Shown piece by piece: positions 1,284 through 49,661 of a stretch of DNA of 64,000 nt (positions within the stretch are counted from its first letter, which is position 1; each line of letters begins with the position of its first letter). The notes beneath the pieces are model-generated. The model saw only the letters and a list, made by a program, of their open reading frames with translations. It had not been told where the DNA came from and made no database searches. The position numbers and the translations under genes were made by a program. Source of the stretch: Actinoplanes sandaracinus. Lineage in GTDB: Bacteria; Actinomycetota; Actinomycetes; Mycobacteriales; Micromonosporaceae. The stretch lies in contig NZ_JASCTH010000022.1 of NCBI RefSeq assembly GCF_030009775.1, forward strand, positions 62,001-126,000, given 5' to 3'.

Positions 1284-1661
1284 TCAGCGGGCCTTCTTGG
1301 TGGCCCGCTTCCGCGGCGGAGTCAACAGGTCCGCAATGGTCGCGATAGCGGACGGCACGAGCCGGTAGTAGGCCCACACACCCCGCTTCTCCCGCTCCAG
1401 CAGACCCGCCTCCGTAAGGATCCGCAGGTGGTGACTCACGGTCGGCTGCGACAGGCCCAGAGGAGCCGTCAGGTCACAGACGCACGCCTCACCGTCCGTC
1501 GCAGACTGAATGAGGCTCAACAGCCGTAGCCGAGCCGGGTCGGCGAGCGCCTTGAGCACTCCCGCCAGGCGCTCAGCGTCAGCGCGTTCAATAGGCTCAC
1601 CGGCAAGCGGCGAGATCTGAGGCATGGTCATTTCCGCCAACGCAGTTCCCACGATCTCCAT
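1284..1661 (-). CDS. ArsR/SmtB family winged-helix metalloregulator
   Basis: A 125-residue protein with the ArsR core: helix with DPARLRLLSL (41-50), metal-site motif CVCDL with Cys60 and Cys62 at the start of the DNA-reading unit, recognition helix SQPTVSHHLRIL (71-82), then the wing EREKRGVWAYYRL. The CVC motif on this helix is the As(III)/Sb(III) site of classical ArsR; related CmtR/CadC proteins use similar cysteines for Cd/Pb. No efflux pump or arsenate reductase lies beside it in the window, so the target is unknown. The start is uncertain: ATG codons at residues 11 and 13 are alternatives and none has an ideal ribosome site. The C-terminus is Lys/Arg-rich. Confidence 0.85.
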   Translation of the reverse strand: MEIVGTALAEMTMPQISPLAGEPIERADAERLAGVLKALADPARLRLLSLIQSATDGEACVCDLTAPLGLSQPTVSHHLRILTEAGLLEREKRGVWAYYRLVPSAIATIADLLTPPRKRATKKAR

Positions 1662-2457
1662 CCTTCCACCAACTGCATCGATTCTCCTGCATGTCAGCAG
1701 GAACGAACCGGCTGATTTTCAGGCCGTAAGGCCGACATCGATCGCCGATACGGCCGACCGGACACCTTCGCCCGGCTCCACCGTTCGTGCAACGACGACT
1801 TCGGTCTCTGCCTCCTGCAACGCTCCAGCCGCCATCTGGTCGCTACCCATCCGTGTCGAGGTCTCGATCCCCGCCCTCGGAGTGAGGCCGGCCACATTGT
1901 CAATTCGTCGTTTGTTTGGCGCACCGGTCCCCCGACGATGCCTCGACACGGAACGCGCCGAGACCAACACGCCACACTGCGCGATCACTAGTTCGCCACA
2001 CACCCCACGACCCGATGAAAGCACGACACCACGCTGCGCGACGGACAATTCAGTGATGAATTTACCCAGGTCGTGCCGTGCTCTCATGACATCGAGCGTA
2101 CTGGCTCTACGAAAACCGGAATCTTTCGCCCCGGCAGGGCGGAACCGAACTATTGACCCGTGACTTTGGTTACTTCTGTAAACAAGGTTTACCGAACGTG
2201 CAACCGGCCTCGACCCTTCCCCGGACCATAGACGCTGCTCAAAGCAGGTAACGCCAGTACGGTACCCGCGCTGCCTTCAGGATCACCTGGTGGCTGCGCT
2301 GTGAAGAGTCTGTGAACCGACCAAATCAGTTTGTCCGTACGGGCGAAAACACCCACCGTCCGGCCGGTCACGATCTATCCGGACAGCCGATCGAGTGACA
2401 GCCACAGAAACGGACCGTACCCGTTCGAGTGACCCACAGTCGTCGATACGGAACCGC
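1662..2457. other. 796-base region with no supported gene
   Basis: No reading frame here shows the strong third-position GC bias of the neighbours. One minus-strand frame (2087 down to 1719, 122 codons) has a -10-like TACGCT seven bases before its ATG, the leaderless pattern used elsewhere in the window, but its codon use is atypical and I recognise no family. The region is less GC-rich than its surroundings and contains a perfect operator-like palindrome at 2178-2192. Confidence 0.4.
2178..2192. promoter_or_regulatory. Operator-like palindrome GTAAAC-AAG-GTTTAC
   Basis: Six-base arms are perfectly inverted around a three-base spacer, in an otherwise gene-free region. A TTGACC (-35-like) element lies at 2153-2158 on the plus strand. 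No plus-strand gene follows, so the regulated transcript, if any, is unidentified. Confidence 0.35.
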
Positions 2458-3201
2458 TCACTCGTTCGGTCGTGACCAGTACTCGTGTTCCGGGCTCGCC
2501 GCCGACTTCGGCGGAGTGGGCTGATCTGAGAACTGATCGGGTTCGGACCCGCCAGTAACAAAAGATTTCGTTTGTGGGGATGCCCACTCCGGCGGCTGTG
2601 CAACCAATTGGCCGGGCGGCACAAAACCCGGCAGGGCGGCGGCCGGCTCGGCCGTTCCACCGAAGAACCCACGCGGGGCCGCCAGCAGCAGCGCCCCCAC
2701 CACCAAATAGGCCACCACCTGGGCGGCGGCCACCGCGACGTTCAGCACGATCCAGCCGCTCGGGTAGGCGGCGTTCAGCGCTGCGCTCAACGTCCCCGGC
2801 TCGGCCTCTCCAGCCCGCTGAGCAGCGAGGATGGCGAGCGTTCCGCAGCCGGTCAGCACTCCGAACACGCACACCCCGAGGGCGATCCCACGAGCCAGCC
2901 GGCTGCCCTTGCGCAGCGCGATGCCGAGAACCGCGAAGAAGGCGACGAACAACACACCCAGCACCAGAGCCAAGGCGGCGACCAGCCACAGCACGGTGAC
3001 GAAGTTGTCCACCGTGTCGGAGCCGGGTGCGGCGTCCCGCAGGCGGCCGACCACGCCGGGAGTGACCGCGGCCATGCCTGCCGCATAGGTCAGGCCGGCC
3101 ACCGCCATGGCCCAGAGCAGGGCGACCGCCGTGCTGACGGCGACGGGCCGGCGGGCGACCGGAGGCACGGCGACAGGTGGCGGCTGAGCGGCGTACGACA
3201 T
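2458..3201 (-). CDS. Hypothetical membrane protein with four predicted helices
   Basis: I do not recognise the family. The protein (247 residues) begins with a Pro/Val-rich cytosolic segment, has four hydrophobic helices (AVALLWAMAVAGLTYAAG; VLWLVAALALVLGVLFVAFF; IALGVCVFGVLTGCGTLAIL; IVLNVAVAAAQVVAYLVVGA), then a polar, proline-containing C-terminus. The start is the ATG of MSYAAQ, because GCAGGAG sits at ribosome-site distance before it; the longer reading would begin nine codons earlier without such a site. The layout is like the next gene upstream (3301-4425), so the two may be relatives, but they do not overlap or share an obvious promoter. Confidence 0.65.
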   Translation of the reverse strand: MSYAAQPPPVAVPPVARRPVAVSTAVALLWAMAVAGLTYAAGMAAVTPGVVGRLRDAAPGSDTVDNFVTVLWLVAALALVLGVLFVAFFAVLGIALRKGSRLARGIALGVCVFGVLTGCGTLAILAAQRAGEAEPGTLSAALNAAYPSGWIVLNVAVAAAQVVAYLVVGALLLAAPRGFFGGTAEPAAALPGFVPPGQLVAQPPEWASPQTKSFVTGGSEPDQFSDQPTPPKSAASPEHEYWSRPNE

Positions 3202-3300
3202 CGATGCTCCTGCGGGTTCGGCTGGCAAGAACCTATCGCGTGCGTAGCCGGGAAGTGGCCGGACCGGCCCACCCCGAGGGGCGGACCGGTCCGAAAGCGA

Positions 3301-5003: not shown

Positions 5004-7592
5004 TCAGAGAGCGCGGCGGATCGACAGACCGTCCTTGGCGTCGCTCAGGTCGGCCAGCACGGTGTCACCGTCCCTGATCTCACCGCTCAGCAGCGCCTTC
5101 GCCAGGAGGTCACCGATCGAGGACTGGATCAGCCGGCGCAGGGGCCGAGCGCCGTAGATCGGGTCGTACCCGTGCTCGCCCAGCCACTCCACCGCGGCGG
5201 GCGCCACCACGAGATCGAGGCGCCGCTCGGCGAGCCGGCCGCGGAGCCGGGACAGCTGGATGTCGACGATCGCGGTCAGATCGTTCTTGGTGAGGGCGTG
5301 GAACACCACGATGTCGTCGAGCCGGTTGAGGAACTCGGGCTTGAAGTGCGCCCGGACCGCCGCCAGCACCTCGTCGTGGCGCTCCTCGTCGCTCATCGTG
5401 AAGTCGGAGTTCGCCGACCCCAGGTTCGAGGTCAGGACCAGGATGGCGTTGCGGAAGTCGACCGTGCGTCCCTGGCCGTCGGTGAGGCGGCCGTCGTCGA
5501 GCACCTGCAGCAGCAGGTCGAAGACGTCGGGGTGGGCCTTCTCCACCTCGTCCAGCAGCACCACGCTGTACGGCCGGCGCCGCACCGCCTCGGTGAGCTG
5601 GCCACCCTCCTCGTAGCCGACGTAGCCGGGCGGGGCGCCGACGAGCCGGGCCACCGAGTGCTTCTCGCCGTACTCACTCATGTCGATGCGGACCATCGCC
5701 CGCTCGTCGTCGAAGAGGAACCCGGCCAGGGCCTTCGCCAGCTCGGTCTTGCCGACACCGGTGGGGCCGAGGAAGAGGAAGCTGCCGGTCGGACGGTCCG
5801 GGTCGGCGATCCCGGCGCGGGCCCGGCGGACCGCCCCCGCGACCGCGGCCACCGCCTCGTGCTGGCCGATCACCTTGGCCGAGAGCGACTCCTCGATGCG
5901 GAGCAGCTTGGCGGTCTCGCCCTCCATCATCCGGCCGGCCGGGATGCCGGTCCACGCGGAGACGACCTCGGCGATGTCGTCGGCGCCGACGTCCTCCTTG
6001 ACCATCGGCGGCTCGGCGGTCTCCTCCTCGGACTCGGAGGCGGCCCGGATCTCCCGCTCCAGAGTGGGGATCACCTCGTAGAGCAGACGGGAGGCCTCGA
6101 GCAGCTCGCCGTCACGCTGGGCGCGCTCCTGCGCGGCCCGGGCCTCGTCGAGCTCCTTCTTCAACTCACCGACCCGGTTCAGGCCGCCGCGCTCGCGCTC
6201 CCAGCGGGCGGTGAGGGCGGTCAACTCCTCTTCCCGGTCGGCCAGGTCGGCGACCAGCCGCTCCAGGCGGGCCATCGAGGCCGGGTCGGTCTCCTTCTCC
6301 AGAGCGAGCCGCTCCACCCGCATGCGGTCGACCTGGCGCTGGAGCTGGTCGAGCTCGACCGGGCGGGAGTCGATCTCCATGCGCAGCCGGGAGGCCGCTT
6401 CGTCGATCAGGTCGATCGCCTTGTCGGGAAGGAACCGGTCGCTGATGTAGCGGTCGGACAGGCTCGCGGCCGCGACCAGCGCCGCGTCGGTGATCTGCAC
6501 CCGGTGGTGAGCCTCGTAACGGCCCTTGAGACCGCGCAGGATGCCGATGGTGTCCTCGACGGTCGGCTCACCGACGACCACCGGCTGGAACCGGCGCTCG
6601 AGTGCCGGGTCCTTCTCGATGTGTTCGCGGTACTCGTCGAGCGTGGTGGCGCCGACCATGCGCAGCTCGCCGCGGGCCAGCATCGGCTTGAGCATGTTGC
6701 CGGCGTCCATCGAGCCTTCGCCCTTGCCCGCGCCGACGACCGTGTGCAGTTCGTCGAGGAAGGTGACGACCTGGCCGTTCGAGCTGCGAATCTCCTCCAG
6801 GACGCTCTTCAGGCGCTCCTCGAACTGGCCGCGGTATTGCGCGCCGGCGACCATGGCGCCGAGGTCGAGCGAGACGAGCTTCTTGTCACGCAGCGTCTCG
6901 GGCACGTCGCCGGCGACGATGCGCTGGGCCAGGCCCTCGACGATCGCGGTCTTGCCGACACCCGGCTCCCCGATCAGCACCGGGTTGTTCTTGGTGCGCC
7001 GGGAGAGCACCTGCACGACCCGGCGGATCTCGGCGTCCCGCCCGATCACCGGGTCGATCTTGCCGTCGCGGGCCAGCGCGGTCAGGTCGACGCTGTATTT
7101 CTCCAGCGCCTTGTAGGTCTGCTCGGGATCGGCCGTGGTGACCCGCCGCTCGCCCCCGCGAACCTGGGGGAACGCGCTGACCAGCGCCTCCTCGGTGGCG
7201 CCGGCGTCCTTGAGGGCGGCCGACACCGCGCCACCCACCCGGGCCAGGCCGGCGAGCAGGTGCTCGGTGGACACGTATTCGTCGCCGAGCGGTTTGGCGA
7301 TCAGGTCGGCCGAGCCGATCGCGTTCACGAACTCGCGGGACAGGCTGGGCTCGACGGTGCTCGCCCCGCGTGCGGACGGCAGTTGCTCGATGGCGCGCAC
7401 GGCGGCCCGGCGAATGTCGGCCGGATTGGCACCGACCGCGCGCAGCAGCGCGGTGGCGGTGGACCCGCCGATGTCGAGCAACGCCTGAAGCATGTGCCAC
7501 GGCTCGACCGTGGCATGTCCGCGGCGGCCGGCATCGGCGACCGCGGAGGTGATCACTTCGCGGCTCTTGGTGGTCAAGCGTTCGGTGTTCAT
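5004..7592 (-). CDS. clpB: ATP-dependent disaggregase ClpB
   Basis: The 862-residue product has the standard ClpB plan: an N-terminal Clp repeat domain (1-145), first AAA+ module with GEPGVGKT at 208-215, the coiled-coil M domain rich in Glu/Arg, second AAA+ module with GPTGVGKTE near 610, and a C-terminal D2-small domain. ClpB rescues aggregated proteins together with DnaK, DnaJ and GrpE. The start is the ATG of [10 protein letters not shown], with AGGGGAG just upstream. The same frame stays open to 9572, but that part is an antisense shadow of the antiporter genes. A HAIR operator at 7620-7640 lies in the promoter region, so HspR repression is expected. Confidence 0.97.
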
Positions 7593-42910: not shown

Positions 42911-42984
42911 GCGGGTGTAGTTCAATGGCAGAACATCAGCTTCCCAAGCTGACAGCGCGGGTTCGATTCCCGTCACCCGCTCCA
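42911..42984 (+). tRNA. tRNA-Gly (anticodon CCC)
   Basis: 74 bases including encoded CCA. Acceptor GCGGGTG pairs with CACCCGC; D stem GTTC/GAAC; anticodon stem TCAGC/GCTGA with loop TTCCCAA, hence anticodon CCC reading GGG; T stem-loop contains TTCGATT. It is intact although the 3' half is duplicated 1665 bases downstream as an attachment-site repeat. Confidence 0.95.
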
Positions 42985-43045
42985 CATACGGAAGCCCTGG
43001 TCAGGACATATGTCCCGCCAGGGCTTCCGTCGTTCTAGGCCATGC
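42941..43045 (+). repeat. Left 105-bp direct repeat (attL-like), from tRNA anticodon loop through its terminator
   Basis: Identical to 44606-44710 at 103 of 105 positions by direct reading. It starts in the anticodon loop and includes the tRNA terminator. This is the arrangement left when an integrase uses the 3' half of a tRNA gene as attachment site and restores the gene at the insertion. Confidence 0.88.
42988..43030 (+). terminator. Terminator of tRNA-Gly
   Basis: ACGGAAGCCCTGG and complement form a 13-bp stem with a 17-base loop, ending in CGTTCT. The same structure is copied in the right repeat at 44653-44695. Confidence 0.8.
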
Positions 43046-43063
43046 TGAACCGGGGATGGGCCA

Positions 43064-43234
43064 TTAACGGGCCTTAGCCCGCCTCGGCGGGCCGTTCGCC
43101 GCCATCGACAACCCACTTCGCCTTTGCGCTTGCTCGGCTTGCGCCGGGGCCGCCATTACCGCCCGGTCCATCGCGTCGGCGATCCCGTGATCGGCCTCCC
43201 GGCTGGCGTGCCCCTCATTCAAGATCCAAGCCAC
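43064..43234 (-). CDS. Small island ORF, 56 residues (possibly relic)
   Basis: The protein starts MAWILNEGHASREADHG and ends in a basic PPRRAKAR. A start-proximal relative, MARILDEGQAVGVARRE, can be read at the other end of the island from 44520 downward. Because the shared part is conserved in frame, the first codons were once coding in both. GTG start; no good ribosome site. Function unknown; may be the head of a degraded gene. Confidence 0.4.
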   Translation of the reverse strand: MAWILNEGHASREADHGIADAMDRAVMAAPAQAEQAQRRSGLSMAANGPPRRAKAR

Positions 43235-43333
43235 TAGCGGGCTAATGCAGCAGGCTACTTGAGGTCGCTCCAGGCCACTCGATCTCCCGCTGAACTGTGA
43301 TCCAGGGTGATCACCAGGGGGTCTCGTACGGTT
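43207..43333. repeat. Inner direct repeat, left copy
   Basis: Matches 44492-44607 with small gaps. On the minus strand both copies encode the same C-terminus, ...PLVITLDHSSAGDRVAW followed by SDLK or NALK and TAG. In the right copy this sequence runs directly into the tRNA-derived repeat; in the left copy it does not. Confidence 0.75.
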
Positions 43334-43335
43334 TG
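43255..43335 (-). pseudogene. C-terminal relic of an island gene
   Basis: Only the end of a gene remains: VRDPLVITLDHSSAGDRVAW then SDLK stop. The equivalent relic at the other island end (44533-44605) has a synonymous AGT/AGC difference and two replaced residues, which is the signature of former protein-level selection. The parent family is not recognised. Confidence 0.45.
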
Positions 43336-43352
43336 ACAATCGCCGCAAAATA

Positions 43353-43388
43353 AAGTTGCGGTACGAGCAATAGCCCGTACCGCAACTT
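43353..43388 (-). terminator. Terminator of the secreted-protein gene
   Basis: AAGTTGCGGTACG and complement make a 13-bp stem; on the minus strand it is followed by TTATTTTG. It lies 27 bases after the stop. Confidence 0.85.
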
Positions 43389-43414
43389 CACCTATAGCTG
43401 GCGATCTTTCCTGA

Positions 43415-43723
43415 TCAGCAGAGGACCGTCTTGTCGTAGTCCGCGAGGACACTCAGCGAGTACCAGGTCTTCGTGGCCCCTGCCGCAAGGGTGATGCACG
43501 GTGAATCGGTGCCCCAGTCCAGAATGATTCGCACCTTCTTAGTGGAGCCGCAGTTATTCTTGAGGGTGACTCCCACGGGGTTGGTGTCCGAGTCAGCATT
43601 GTGAATAGTGCGCCCGATACAGCTGGGGGCTGTGGTGGCCGCGAATGCAGGAGTTGCACCGACACCGACGGCAATCGTCCCTAGAATCGAGACGATAGCC
43701 GTACGAGTGATAGCCTGCTTCAT
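43415..43723 (-). CDS. Secreted four-cysteine protein, tendamistat-like pattern
   Basis: 102 residues. A clear signal peptide (MKQAITRTAIVSILGTIAVG then AFAA) precedes a 75-residue mature part with four cysteines: PSC, NNC, SPC and a final C. The spacing between the second and third cysteine is 18, as in the alpha-amylase inhibitor tendamistat, and the motif SPCITLAAGATKTW is close to its CYAVAPG region, but the inhibitory Trp-Arg-Tyr is missing. Similar small secreted proteins occur in Streptomyces. ATG start with GGGAGG before it. It has its own promoter and terminator and is the only intact cargo of the island; low GC points to transfer. Confidence 0.72.
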   Translation of the reverse strand: MKQAITRTAIVSILGTIAVGVGATPAFAATTAPSCIGRTIHNADSDTNPVGVTLKNNCGSTKKVRIILDWGTDSPCITLAAGATKTWYSLSVLADYDKTVLC

Positions 43724-43743
43724 TCGTTTCCTCCCGTGTGTTT

Positions 43744-43764
43744 GATTGATCAGCGCGATCAATC
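43744..43764. promoter_or_regulatory. Inverted repeat in the leader of the secreted-protein gene
   Basis: GATTGATC-N5-GATCAATC, perfect 8-bp arms, lies 20 bases before the start codon on the transcribed strand: an operator or a leader hairpin near the ribosome site. Confidence 0.5.
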
Positions 43765-43831
43765 GAGCAAGATCGACGTTAACAGTTCGTGATGCCGATG
43801 TACACACATTGAGCAACTCCACTATGTGATC

Positions 43832-43859
43832 AATCTCACTCCCAATATTGGTGTGTCAA
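43832..43859 (-). promoter_or_regulatory. Promoter candidate of the secreted-protein gene
   Basis: On the minus strand TTGACA (rc of 43854-43859) and GAGATT (rc of 43832-43837) are 16 bases apart in very AT-rich DNA, about 100 bases before the ATG. Confidence 0.5.
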
Positions 43860-44491
43860 TATATAGGTTGCACGCAGAGAGATCCAGTAGATATCATGGA
43901 TCTAATAGTTGCGTCAGGTGAATTTTCCGCCCTAGCCTCGGCTTTTCATTAAGGGCTATCCTAAAAAGGGGCCGGAAATGCAGAATGCCTTCTGATCAGG
44001 AGAAATAGGCTTGTTAAGAGCCCCGGTAACCCGTCGCGGAAGGCACTTGCTGGTCGGTCACGCCGCCGGCACCCGGCTACTCGCCCGATGCGACCGGTTT
44101 GACCAGCGCGTTCAGCCAAGTATTGGCCGGACTGCGGCAGCAGCAGGGCGGGTGCGACAGGCACCTCGACATCCGATTCAGTATCGCCGCGACCACCGAA
44201 CCGGTCCGAGAAGCGATGCGGACCGCGACCAGCTCGGTCCGCGATCAATCAAGCCTGGCTCCCACTCGCCATGACCGGCATCGACCTGTTCGCCCGGACC
44301 CAGATCCGATTCCTGGACAGCGATCTCGCCATCAACCAAACGAATCGCCGTCATCGAATAATGACTATGGAATGACGCCCGAGCGAAATACCGAAGTTGG
44401 CCCTGTCCCCCCCCGTGCCCCCGATGTGACCTGAGCTGCGTAAACGGTGGGGCAGTCGGGAGAAAGTGCCTCCCGCCTGGCCACGCCGACC
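43860..44491. other. Island interior without an intact gene
   Basis: About 630 bases of mixed composition. Reading frames are short or atypical. The only recognisable protein trace is the transposase-like scrap at 44256-44375. Confidence 0.45.
44256..44375 (+). pseudogene. Possible C-terminal fragment of an IS1380-family transposase
   Basis: The frame reads WLPLAMTGIDLFARTQIRFL then DSDLAINQTNRRH and stops. IS1380 transposases end with a similar pattern (a DL.A.T helix followed by LDGDLA and an Arg-rich stretch). The fragment has no start and no inverted repeats were found. Confidence 0.35.
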
Positions 44492-44605
44492 GCCTGCCCC
44501 TCATCCAAGATACGGGCCATTACGGCGGGCTACTTGAGGGCATTCCAGGCCACTCGATCTCCCGCTGAGCTGTGATCCAGGGTGATCACCAGGGGCCTTG
44601 TACGG

Positions 44606-44710
44606 TTCCCAATCTGACAGCGCGTGTTCGATTCCCGTCACCCGCTCCACATACGGAAGCCCTGGTCAGGACATATGTCCCGCCAGGGCTTCCGTCGTTC
44701 TAGGCCATGC
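44606..44710 (+). repeat. Right 105-bp direct repeat (attR-like)
   Basis: Copy of the tRNA-Gly 3' half and terminator. Two changes relative to the functional gene (aagct to aatct; gcgggt to gcgtgt) would break the anticodon and T stems, so it is not a tRNA. Confidence 0.88.
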
Positions 44711-44820
44711 CGAAAAAGGGCTCGACCATCGGCCCGGCCATCGGCTCACCGCGACGGCCGGTCCCTCGCCCTCGGCAACCCGCTGTCATCACCTTGCCGG
44801 GCTGTCGTGGAGGTGCGGAC

Positions 44821-44875: not shown

Positions 44876-47207
44876 TCAGGCCCGCGGAGCCTCGGATCGC
44901 CGTCGTCGCACGGTCACCAGCAGCACACCCACCACGACGAAGAGTGCGCCGATGCCGGCGAGCCCGGCCACATTCGCACCGGTCAACGCCAGCGGGCCGT
45001 CCGCCGCGGCTGTCGGCTCGGTGGCGGGCGAGCTTGCCGGCGAGGTGGACGGACCTCCGGCAGCCGGCCCCGATGACGAACGGGAAGCCGACGGAGCAGC
45101 GGGTTTCGGACTCGACCCGGAACCGGGCGGAGCGGACGGGCTGGAGGAGGCGCTCGGCCCGCTCGAGGGGCGCGGCGGCCGCGGAATGTCCGAGACCTTG
45201 GCGTACACCCGCCATTCGAAGGTCACCGAGGCACGCTGCCCCGCCGGATCGGTGGCGGTGACGACCACCGTCGAGGTACCGGCGGTGGTGGGAGACCCGG
45301 AGATGAAGGATTCCCCGGGTCGGAGCGTCAATCCGGGTGGCAGTCCCGTGGCGGTGTACTTGACCTCGTCGTGGCTGCTTTTCAGCTTCACGAACTCCGT
45401 CGATCCGACGATTCCGATCCGTTGCCCCGGGCTGTTCACCGTCAGAGGCGGCAAGATGTAGATCGATGGCTTTGTCATGGCGGAGTTCCCGGCCGGGTCC
45501 TTGGCCGTGACCTCTGGAACGGCCGTCGTCGGCTCGGCCACCACGCCTGTGACGCGGCCGGTCGCGGGATCCAGCGTCAGCCCGGCAGGCAGTCCGGTGG
45601 CGCTGTAGGTCACCGGGTCGTCCTGCGGGTCGTACGCCTTGACGGTGAACGTGACCGGCTTGCCTGCCACGCCGTACACCGGGGGAAGCTGTTCGATCGC
45701 GGGACGCTGCGGCGGCGTCCCGGGCTTGGGATCCGTCGGCTGGGGGCCCGTCGCGACCGGATCGGATCCGTCGACGGCGACAGCCTTCCATGCCGCGTCC
45801 ACGGCCTTGCGCTCGCTGCTGTCGGCGCCGTACAGATCGGCGGCGGCCTTCAGCGTGGCCTCGCGGGCGGCGGAGTAGTTGGTGTAGGACACCATGTACG
45901 TGGTCAGAGCCCGGTACCAGATCTTGCCGGCTTTGTCGTTGCCGATGCCGGTGACCGCCGGGGCTCCGCCGCACGTCGGGCTGTCGCCCCACTTCGACTT
46001 ACCGCTGCCCACGGCGAGGGTGTAGAAGAACTTGTTCCCTACGCCGGAGCCGTGGTGAACGTCCAGGCTCTTGAGCGCCGGCGTCCAGCACGACAGCGAC
46101 TCGCCGTCCTTGGCCGGGTCATCCATGAAGCGCAGCGGTTTGTCGGCGCCGTTCCGCTGCTCACTCTGCAGGTAGTCCGGCGGGTCGGCGGGGTTGTCGG
46201 CGTGGAACTCGACAAGCGCGCCGAAGATGTCGCTGGCCGCCTCGTTGAGGCTGCCGGACTCACCGGCGTAGATCAGGTCCGCGGTGGCGGAGGTGATTCC
46301 GTGCGCCATCTCATGCGCCACCGTGTCGATCGAGGTCCATGCCGCGGGCATCGCGGACCTCGCTGCCGCCCCGGTCGGGGTCGATCAGCTCGAACGTGCC
46401 GTCGGCACGGCGGGTGGTGCTCCGCGACACCTTCCCGGAGTGCTGGCCGTGCCCGCTCCCGGCTTCCGTGCGCTCGTTGTCGTAGGCGCGGCGAACGGCG
46501 CCGGTCGTCGCGTCGACCACGACGGTCATCGCGCTCGCGTCGAGCCCTTCGACGAGCACCCGCCAGGCCAGCCGCGGCGCGCCGTCACCGGCGTCGACGA
46601 CCAGTGTCGGGGTGGTCCGAGGCTCCTTGCCGGTGAACTTCGCCTCGGCCACCTTGGCCGCTCTCGCCGCGGTCACGTCGGGTGTGGTCGACACCGAGAT
46701 CGTCGCGCTCTGAGTCAGCGTCGTGTCCCGGAGCCGGCCGTCGGGGCCGGAGTGCACGATGAAGTCACCGCCGAGCACCTCCAACCCCCGGTAGGTGCGA
46801 TCGAAGCGGACGTGCCGGCTGCCGTCCTTCTCCACCAGCGCGGAACTCGACTGGTAATCCTCCGCCGCGACACCGCGCACGAGCGCGCGGTCACCGACGA
46901 CGATCTCCTTCGCCTGCGTGGCCGCCTTCTTCGGGCTCGGTCTGCCCTGCGCCGGGCTCGGCTGGTCCGGCTGGTCCGGCTGGGAGCGTCCGCTGCCGGT
47001 TGTCGCACCTGTACCGGGAACCTCCGCGGATGACGACGCCGCGGGCCGGGCGGACGACGACGTTCCCGCCTTCCAAGCGGCGGAGTCCTGCGCGGATGTC
47101 CCGGGCCCGTGCGTCCCGGCAATGACCAACGCGACACCCGCGCCGGTCACGACGGTGGCGACGCCGGTGACGGCCAGCCGCAACCGCGTCGAATTTCTTC
47201 GACTCAT
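44876..47207 (-). pseudogene. Disrupted M4 (thermolysin-like) metalloprotease with sortase signal
   Basis: Two overlapping frames hold one gene. The first (47207 to 46311) has a signal segment, low-complexity linker, FTP and PepSY propeptide domains and the first few residues of the catalytic domain (ELIDPDRGGSEV), then goes out of frame. The second (46351 to 44876) begins inside the catalytic domain and keeps HEMAHG, GESGSLNEAASDIFG, the C-terminal helices, two PKD/Ig-like repeats and the wall signal LALTG plus a helix and RRRR. Roughly 70-80 catalytic residues expected between the frames are absent near 46340, so a deletion with frameshift inactivated the gene. LALTG fits class E sortases. 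Confidence 0.8.
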
Positions 47208-47357
47208 TCCTATATTGCCCCGTGTTGATACCGCCAAGTGCACGACGCACCATTCCAGACCGAGCCAAACGGGGCAAAATCGTTGTGCCGGACACCCGAT
47301 CACCACCGGGTCGCACGCGGTGGTACAGAGATGAACCACTCGGCCGGAAGGCGGCGT

Positions 47358-47363
47358 TAACGT
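47358..47363 (+). promoter_or_regulatory. -10 hexamer TAACGT, leaderless
   Basis: TAACGT ends seven bases before the ATG at 47371. Confidence 0.65.
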
Positions 47364-47370
47364 CGGCGGC

Positions 47371-48576
47371 ATGACCCTACGACGGAGCGCCGACCCCGCG
47401 GTCGGCGATCAGATCCGTGCGCGCCGCCTGCTTCGCGGGTGGAGCGTCCGGTACGCCGCCAGCAGGGCCGGTGTCTCACATGCCACCTGGAGTCGTATCG
47501 AACGGGGGCTGCAGACAGCCGACAACCGATTCATGCTGGCGGGCATCGCCGGGGCGCTGGAATGCGCGCCGGCCGATCTGGCCGGCGCCGGGGTTCCGGC
47601 CCCCGACCGGGCGACCGCGGCGGCCCGAGCCGGGGTGCTCGGCCTGCGCCGGGCACTGGTCGACATCGACCTGACCGAGCCACCTGCCGGGCCCGCACCG
47701 TCGATGTCCGAACTGCGGCGGAGCGCCGCCCTGGCCGACGCCCTGCATCAGGCGTGCGACTACGCCGGCGCCGCCCGCCTGCTCCCGGACCTGCTGCGCG
47801 ACCTGCACACCGAGACGGCCGGACCGGATCATCTCGAGGCGCTGCGGCTGCTCTGCGACGCGACCCACATCGCCTCCACGGTGCTGCGCAGCCTCGGGCA
47901 TCCCGCGGACGCCTGGCTGGGCGCGGAGCGATGCCGCGACGCGGCGGACGCGACCGGCGACCCGGTGCTTCGAGGGCATGCGGCGTACGCGCTGGCCAGG
48001 GCCGCCGTCGCCTGCGGTTCCTACCAGCGGGGGCAGACGCTCGCCGAGCGGGCGGTGGACGACCTGAGCGGGCACCTGAGCCGGCCCGGCGGACCGGAGG
48101 TGCTCGGCTCACTGCATCTGGTGGCCGCGCTGGCCAGCCGGTGCCGGCAGCGACTCGACGACAGCATGGACTGGCTGACCGAGGCGGCCCGGATGGCCCG
48201 CCGCACCGGCGAGACCAACGTGATGGGCATGTTCTTCGGACCCACCAACGTGGACATCTGGCGGATGAGCATCGAAGCCGACGACGGCGACCCGCTCCGG
48301 GTCGTGGAGATCGCCCGGCGTACCGATCCGGCGGCTATCCCGGCCGGCGTGCGGCAGGTCTTCTACTACGCCGACACCGCCCGGGCTCTGACCCGCATCG
48401 GCGGACGGGATCGTGAGGCGATCCGTTTCCTGCTGACCGCGGAGCGGATCGCCCCTCAGCACGTGCGTACGTCGGCCGAGCTGGCGGAGACCATCCGAAC
48501 GCTGCTGGACCGGTCCCGCCGGCAGGCCGGCGGCGCGGAGGTGCGAGCCCTCTACGAACGCATGCAGGCCAACTGA
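47371..48576 (+). CDS. XRE-family regulator with TPR-like C-terminal domain
   Basis: 401 residues. N-terminal helix-turn-helix (VGDQIRARRLLRGWSVRYAA then SRAGVSHATWSRIERG) and a long helical repeat region (about 110-395) like the TPR/NB-type ligand domains of actinobacterial XRE regulators that respond to peptides or small molecules. Leaderless promoter. It diverges from the protease pseudogene with 163 bases between, so it may once have controlled it. Target not identified. Confidence 0.8.
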   Translation: MTLRRSADPAVGDQIRARRLLRGWSVRYAASRAGVSHATWSRIERGLQTADNRFMLAGIAGALECAPADLAGAGVPAPDRATAAARAGVLGLRRALVDIDLTEPPAGPAPSMSELRRSAALADALHQACDYAGAARLLPDLLRDLHTETAGPDHLEALRLLCDATHIASTVLRSLGHPADAWLGAERCRDAADATGDPVLRGHAAYALARAAVACGSYQRGQTLAERAVDDLSGHLSRPGGPEVLGSLHLVAALASRCRQRLDDSMDWLTEAARMARRTGETNVMGMFFGPTNVDIWRMSIEADDGDPLRVVEIARRTDPAAIPAGVRQVFYYADTARALTRIGGRDREAIRFLLTAERIAPQHVRTSAELAETIRTLLDRSRRQAGGAEVRALYERMQAN

Positions 48577-48631: not shown

Positions 48632-48638
48632 GGCTCGG

Positions 48639-49661
48639 TCAGTCGCCGATGGCGATGAAGACGTCGTCGATGGCGCCGGCGAACTGGTCGTTGCCGGGGG
48701 CGGGCCCCTTGCCGCCGACCCGAAGTGGTTCCGCGTTGGCGATCGTCAGCTGGGGCGGCACCGGAACCCAGGCGCGCGGGGTGCCGTCGACCAGCATGAT
48801 CAGGCGGGTGGGGGTGCGGCGGCATTCCAGGTCGTGCCAGGTCCCGTCGGCCACGTCGACCCAGGGCTCGGCACGGTAGATGTGCGCACGCTGGCTGGCG
48901 ATCACGCAGCTCGGATGGCCCTGACGGTGGTCGACCTGGAGCTTGTACTGGCTGACACCACCGACCGAGTAACCCTTCTGCAGCACGTTGGCGCCGTCGG
49001 CCAGGTCGGCGTGGGTCATCCGGATGGAGGCGCCGTAGCGCAGCGGGCGGCGGCCGGGGTTGAGGCTGTCGTCGCGCAGGCCTTCGAGAATCGCCCGGGG
49101 GCAGGCCCACTCCCGCGGCAGGGTGCAGCGGTCCGGATAGGCGACGGCAAGACCGGACCCTTGGGGTACGAGCCGGAGCGCTCCCCCGTTCTGTCCGAGC
49201 GGCCGCAACTCGTGTCCGCCCCGGGAATCGGAGATCGGCCGGCCTACCCCGCCGTTGAAGTCGTAGTGCACCGCGAACGGCCCGTCCGCGACCCGGATCC
49301 GCCCAGGCGGGAGGGGTGCCGAGAAGGTGCTGACATTGCTGAGGAAGCCGGGCCGGGCCGGTGGCACCGCCTGCACGGTTCCGGGCCTGCCCGCGCCCGG
49401 GGCGACGGGTGGAAGGGTGCCCCGAACGGTCGCGGGCGAAGCGGAGCCTGGGAGGGACAGGGGCGGGAGCGGGGTACGGGCGGGGCCCGGCGAGAAAGCG
49501 GTCCGGCCGGAGGAGGCTGCCGGGGTCTGACTGCGGACGGATGACGTGGCGGGTGGTCCGGCGACGGACGGGGTGTGGGTGACGAGGAGGGAGGCCCCGG
49601 CCAGGACGAGTGCCGCTGACAGGGCGCCGATCGGTACGGCACGCCGTCGAGTGTGAAGCAT
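48639..49661 (-). CDS. Secreted LamG/concanavalin-like domain protein
   Basis: 340 residues. Signal peptide (MLHTRRRAVPIGALSAALVL then AGASLLVTHT), a Pro/Ser-rich linker (about 30-105), then a jellyroll domain: FAVHYDFNGGVGRPISDSRG, ASIRMTHADLADGANVLQKG, GTWHDLECRRTPTRLIMLVD, AGAIDDVFIAIGD. Four cysteines could form two disulfides. LamG-like folds bind glycans or proteins; ligand unknown. The ATG of MLHTRRR is chosen; GACAAT six bases before it resembles a leaderless -10. Confidence 0.75.
   Translation of the reverse strand: MLHTRRRAVPIGALSAALVLAGASLLVTHTPSVAGPPATSSVRSQTPAASSGRTAFSPGPARTPLPPLSLPGSASPATVRGTLPPVAPGAGRPGTVQAVPPARPGFLSNVSTFSAPLPPGRIRVADGPFAVHYDFNGGVGRPISDSRGGHELRPLGQNGGALRLVPQGSGLAVAYPDRCTLPREWACPRAILEGLRDDSLNPGRRPLRYGASIRMTHADLADGANVLQKGYSVGGVSQYKLQVDHRQGHPSCVIASQRAHIYRAEPWVDVADGTWHDLECRRTPTRLIMLVDGTPRAWVPVPPQLTIANAEPLRVGGKGPAPGNDQFAGAIDDVFIAIGD

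Follow-up and report, generated by a model that had tools for sequence, protein, structure and literature searches.

The window, i.e., the whole 64-kb stretch of DNA analysed here, carries a tRNA-Gly(CCC) gene whose 3′ half recurs at the far end of a 1.7-kb stretch (Table 1). A 105-bp duplication with 103 identical positions (42941-43045 and 44606-44710) had been reported in an earlier note on this DNA, and both alignment and pattern search confirmed it: the two mismatches lie at 42948/44613 and 42960/44625, the next at 43046, after which identity drops, and the repeat is traceable over 109 bp with three differences. A degenerate 43-nt core pattern matched the window exactly twice and had no match in 100 shuffles. 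Since the anticodon starts at tRNA position 33 (42943), the repeat opens, as claimed, in the anticodon loop, and it includes a hairpin (42988-43030 in the left copy). The repeats enclose an islet of 1.67 kb, and its description as AT-rich also stands, with 59.0% GC in the interior and 52.5% at 43350-43930, compared to 69.9% for the window.

Table 1 Features of the tRNA-Gly locus in the window
Feature	Position	Strand	Basis
tRNA-Gly (CCC), insertion target	42911-42984	+	ARAGORN
Left attachment repeat (attL side), tRNA 3′ half and hairpin	42941-43049	+	103/105 identical to 44606-44710; 106/109 to 44714
C-terminal stub of tyrosine integrase, frameshifted (READHGIADAMDRAV ... RRKPSKRK)	43123-43211	-	tblastn with integrases of G002, G048, G100
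Inner copy of right arm, no recognisable core after it	43238-43333	+	87.5% over 96 columns to 44513-44607
Terminator-like hairpin after secreted-protein gene	43353-43388	-	-41.9 kcal/mol, z -8.6
Intact gene, 102-aa secreted protein, tendamistat-like	43415-43723	-	Open ORF; PF01356 E 0.0043, below cut-off
Relic of IS1380-like transposase element (PF13701 family), internal deletions	43926-44363	+	DNA pieces 43926-44341; protein pieces to 44363
Right arm of element, ending GTACGG before core	44513-44605	+	72-77% with core in six relatives
Right attachment repeat (attR side)	44606-44714	+	Repeat comparison and core pattern search
Start of conserved host backbone downstream of hotspot	48636-49361	.	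51/67 loci, window included

Two further genes lie beyond the right repeat. An M4-type peptidase (44876-47372, minus strand) is split into two overlapping frames, propeptide (46311-47372) and catalytic (44876-46351), and is possibly frameshifted; it was found at the tRNA-Gly site in none of the other fetched loci. The helix-turn-helix gene that follows (47371-48576) is found immediately upstream of the backbone in G104 and G034, and may thus be older than the islet. A second copy of the islet, on contig C57, proved to be no real duplication, as contigs C16 and C57 overlap by ~98.7 kb up to the end of C16 (97,625 mismatch-free columns at 99.992%, followed by 1,119 at 100%). Positions 31323-64000 of the window are thus present twice in the assembly, which inflates genome copy counts.

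We compared this locus across 67 genomes of the genus (66 relatives and the window's own genome), all of which match the tRNA and its tail, and took up to ~18 kb downstream of the tRNA from each relative. Upstream of the tRNA, 64 of the 66 carry the same gene, and the loci of G001 and G038 are too short to reach there. With ≤7 mismatches allowed, the 43-nt tRNA tail occurs more than once in 17/67 loci; no locus reached this number when base-shuffled (one version each) or searched with the reversed query. Counts are lower bounds, as the contig ends <1 kb downstream in G055, G004, G057, and G009, and as the whole tRNA was not found in G038, where a tail copy served as anchor. By BLAST, 18/67 loci (G041 being the additional one) carry an extra tail copy starting from exactly the same anticodon-loop base, and five genomes carry tail pieces with other start bases. 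The distance from tail to backbone, available for the 51/67 loci with a same-strand anchor, ranges from 54 bp (G019) to 18.3 kb (G008), and is 5652 bp in the window, i.e., a variable region of 5.6 kb. G019 and G021 are effectively empty sites, of the kind that the earlier note had proposed to look for among relatives. These comparisons mark the 3′ end of tRNA-Gly as an insertion hotspot throughout the genus. None of the papers listed in literature searches has this hotspot as the subject of its title, and PMC3218068 does not mention tRNA-Gly.

The claim that no integrase is left was wrong in detail, as a tyrosine integrase has left a C-terminal stub, now frameshifted, on the inner side of the left repeat, reading READHGIADAMDRAV, with RRKPSKRK in another frame. 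At the protein level, the stub gives a short match of 54 aligned columns (best E 3e-6, in a search of one small target), and the first half of this alignment is regarded as a chance extension. At the DNA level, 43046-43211 matches tRNA-adjacent DNA in G002, G015, G017, and G035 at 79-84% over all or most of its length (84% over 167 columns in G002, E 6e-45), and 43065-43211 also matches DNA adjoining the tRNA in G052. Shorter matches lie farther from the tRNA in G100 and G033, and a few other genomes have weaker ones. In G002 and G100, a tyrosine integrase gene runs towards the tRNA, and the matching DNA forms its 3′ end. Matches to this integrase family were detected in 14 of the 66 other loci (E ≤ 1e-4). 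The gene is intact at this site in G012 (PF00589, 62.8 bits) and G100 (384-aa ORF, 45.3 bits). It is degraded elsewhere, with a shortened N-terminus in G002, a broken gene in G048, and shorter pieces in the other ten. G100 matches the islet over 86 nt at the end of the integrase gene (85%) and over 44 nt at the right core. The intact G012 integrase gives a match to the stub of no better than E 0.085. Both elements carry replication- or transfer-type genes beside the integrase (FtsK_SpoIIIE and GntR in G012; AAA_25, Prim-Pol, and GntR in G100, as far as proteins were scanned), and G100 also has an HTH_17 protein; Pfam gave no match for the 709-aa candidate transfer protein of G100. In G012, a second, truncated integrase (L069, 17277-17852 with the tRNA oriented forward) directly follows the right core, which points to a tandem insertion there.

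The right end of the islet is likewise common to other elements at this site. Its right arm, or most of it, continues into the core in G002, G006, G045, G033, G038, and G012 at 72-77% identity (72% in G012). When one extra tail copy was taken per genome, GTACGGT preceded the core in 9/17 genomes, the same motif with one mismatch in four, and a different sequence in four (G106, G012, G054, and G008). Together with the hotspot and its near-empty sites, these shared end sequences bear out the reading of the repeats as attachment sites. The inner copy of the arm adjoins the integrase stub. Elsewhere, the arm occurs near right cores and at one place in G005 (6017-6065), and none of the other loci has a copy at its left end. 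This inner copy was probably left behind when a tandem pair collapsed. The second repeat pair (43238-43333 and 44513-44607) does indicate that some duplication or accretion has happened here, and one could accordingly suppose that the tRNA 3′ end was merely duplicated locally and that unrelated insertions later fell between the copies, without any site-specific insertion, in line with the few tail pieces that start at other bases. We consider this highly improbable, however, given that extra copies share one exact start base in 18 loci, that the GTACGGT motif recurs before the core, and that some of the repeat pairs enclose integrase genes.

Between the gene and the right arm, 43926-44341 matches, in gapped pieces, a multicopy element of other genomes whose protein belongs to PF13701 (205 bits), which we take to be IS1380. 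Transposase residues 232-277 and 382-423, and perhaps some near residue 33, are recognisable, up to position 44363. Overall, the islet interior has matches in 34/67 genomes, its own included, the longest in a relative being ~150 bp. All but one of these matches lie in the left end, the transposase relic, or one of the two arm copies; the exception is in the gene (34 nt in G105, E 5e-4) and is the sole match to this gene stretch among the 66 relatives. The islet as a whole was found in none of the 66, and integrase-bearing elements with the tail repeat do exist at this site, which leaves the recent mobility proposed by the earlier note standing on both counts. Pfam gave no match for two further interior ORFs, and PHROGs nothing better than E 0.39 for five islet ORFs. 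In plasmid and phage collections, no record covered 80% of the islet query, and coverage was ≤14% among the best 20 of 182 plasmid and the best 20 of 85 phage records.

The gene itself had been described as intact cargo with its own promoter, ribosome site, and terminator. Its frame is indeed open and its ATG is preceded by the ribosome site GGGAGGAAACGA. The promoter was not recovered, as the scan gave a single promoter-like site, on the other strand and as expected by chance. For the terminator, a strong hairpin is predicted after the gene, but this hairpin was not among the two terminator-like sites of a consensus scan, and we call it terminator-like on the basis of its computed fold. By eye, the start of the 102-aa protein resembles a signal peptide, and the protein appears weakly similar to tendamistat-type amylase inhibitors: like members of PF01356 it is small and secreted and has four cysteines, with a weak profile match over its middle region, but it differs in scoring 17.5 bits, below the Pfam gathering cut-off of 25. 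At E ≤ 0.1, PF01356 matched five of the nine members of A1 and all four of A2. Profiles built from homologues placed the solved tendamistat first in the PDB (E 0.0035 and 0.018), and tendamistat was not among the matches of a single-sequence PDB search. The WRY contact motif, which we assume to be typical of the tendamistat family, is absent from the islet protein, and the available part of PMC13240717 holds nothing bearing on the motif of this protein.

The protein has homologues in three Streptomyces records (44-47% identity) and in 3 of the 99 other genomes searched, and paralogues in its own genome, along with one distant match in the plasmid collection (a Nonomuraea record); the DNA of the gene was found in none of the other fetched loci. 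Such scattered distant relatives, the open frame, the good ribosome site, and the terminator-like hairpin are consistent with a gene kept by selection as domesticated cargo, possibly a secreted inhibitor, in an islet that has become a fixed host locus. This possibility, which is compatible with decay of the surrounding element, is one that we consider rather unlikely: the nearest relatives found are 40-47% identical, too distant for a selection test, and the third-position GC of the gene (71%, vs 90% in the neighbouring upstream gene) suggests that it may instead be a foreign gene that has not yet decayed.

Taken together, the observed boundaries, integrase stub, shared ends, and transposase relic point to a decayed integrative element, a CIME-like remnant of an actinomycete integrative element, to which we assign a probability of roughly 85%. 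An actinomycete element with a tyrosine integrase would have inserted at the 3′ end of tRNA-Gly(CCC) and, as established knowledge of such integrases suggests, restored the tRNA gene by means of a tail copy carried on the element. Deletion would then have removed nearly everything, sparing only the last ~30 codons of the tRNA-adjacent integrase gene, and, judging from the second arm copy, a tandem pair may have collapsed into one islet. The secreted-protein gene, with its ribosome site and terminator-like hairpin, is the only intact gene recognised. Functionally, such an islet would be CIME-like, i.e., it could move again only if an element of the same integrase specificity supplied the recombinase. 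Some observations fit decay less readily. First, the two attachment copies have kept 97% identity over 109 bp while the interior is degraded, which needs an already reduced element that inserted recently, gene conversion from one copy to the other, or fast deletion. Second, the protein match of the stub is short, although its DNA match to G002 is strong, and the G012 integrase matches it poorly. Third, the sequence just before the right core of G012 does not have the GTACGGT end, and the candidate transfer protein of G100 has no Pfam match.

The earlier note had left a choice between a minimal element mobilised in trans and an eroded element whose cargo is kept. The integrase stub, the transposase relic, and the inner arm copy favour the eroded element, as they look like rubble and not like a streamlined unit. 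A minimal, integrase-less element that is still moved as a unit, by an integrase of the same tRNA-Gly specificity acting in trans, would be in line with the presence of both attachment copies and of the right arm, and with the ten islets of <2 kb between tail copies in 9/67 genomes. Mobilisation in trans nevertheless found no support for this islet, and we consider it quite unlikely: whole, it is absent from all 66 relatives, its gene stretch has but the one short match in G105, and no close relative of the G012 integrase is encoded in its own assembly. With that integrase as query, no helper was visible among the 99 contigs, the best-scoring match being 32% identical and none exceeding 34%. 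Overall, no sign of present movement of the islet was found.

The ten small islets lie in G000, G049, G037 (two), G006, G017, G043, G027, G005, and G008. Toxin-antitoxin-type genes of three types occur inside them in five of these nine genomes (G043, G027, G005, G006, and G008; L070, L078, L097, L054, and L102), a raw count without a baseline from equally short loci. The G043 islet encodes a Gp49-like protein and an HTH protein, a pair also present in G027 (95% DNA identity) and G005 (84-87%), the G006 islet a SocA_Panacea antitoxin-type protein, and the G008 islet a DUF433 protein with DUF5615/PIN, presumably a toxin-antitoxin pair. Pfam gave no match for the ORFs scanned from the small islets of G037, G017, and G049. 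It is as if toxin-antitoxin genes kept short remnants from being lost. One of these islets, 1.7 kb long and bounded by attachment sites (L078 in G027, 1529-3266; L070 in G043, 1532-3275, tRNA oriented forward), has no match to the integrase of this site. It is 95.2% identical between the two genomes, which represent different species (1572/1651), against 82% in the upstream flank (1006/1226, with 100-bp windows there reaching 93%) and 57% directly past the second core, where the alignment collapses (208/364), the backbone farther down being at 76-82%. A decayed second copy immediately follows the first in G043. Diverged versions occur at the same site in G005 and G102, and relatives elsewhere in G050 and, in part, G059, G041, and G042. 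By comparison, ~1 kb common to G008 and G018 (85%, vs 83% in the flank) looks vertically inherited.

On sequence evidence, the G027/G043 islet may thus have moved as a unit, which counts in favour of the minimal-element reading but does not show that the islet of the window moves. It is also the best evidence for a broader scenario, in which the tRNA-Gly site would host a population of integrase-less islets of <2 kb that spread between species as units, using integrases borrowed from larger elements that have the same arms. Toxin-antitoxin genes would hold many of these islets in place, with the islet of the window as one that carries a secreted protein instead. We consider this scenario unlikely. 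Beyond any single islet, the elements at this one tRNA gene in one genus range step by step from those with an intact integrase down to rubble bounded by attachment sites, so that one can test if even the smallest islets are still moved by a borrowed integrase.

The decayed-element reading can be compared with two known systems. A CIME (cis-mobilizable element) is an element without integration and transfer genes in which attL and attR are kept, as described in the available part of PMC5704250. The islet retains both attL and attR, has lost integration and transfer genes down to an integrase stub, and has ends in common with elements at the same tRNA (the integrase 3′ end and the right arm), although the full length of both ends is not matched by any one intact element. 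It is further like the CIMEs of PMC5704250, in the part available, in its inferred tandem accretion with related elements, and differs in being very small, in its actinomycete host, and in that its mobilisation is putative. For actinomycetes, the portion of PMC3218068 at hand describes ICEs that insert at the 3′ end of tRNA genes through a tyrosine integrase adjoining one att site, as well as AICE remnants and tandem arrays at tRNA genes. Here again the islet is alike in its insertion at a tRNA 3′ end with a tyrosine integrase beside an att site, but it differs from these ICEs, as far as that portion describes them, in having no recognisable replication or transfer gene, and it is no AICE proper, being without an intact integrase, replication genes, or FtsK-type transfer genes. 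Overall, this kind of element is already known, from CIMEs and AICE remnants, and the islet is an ordinary genomic fossil.
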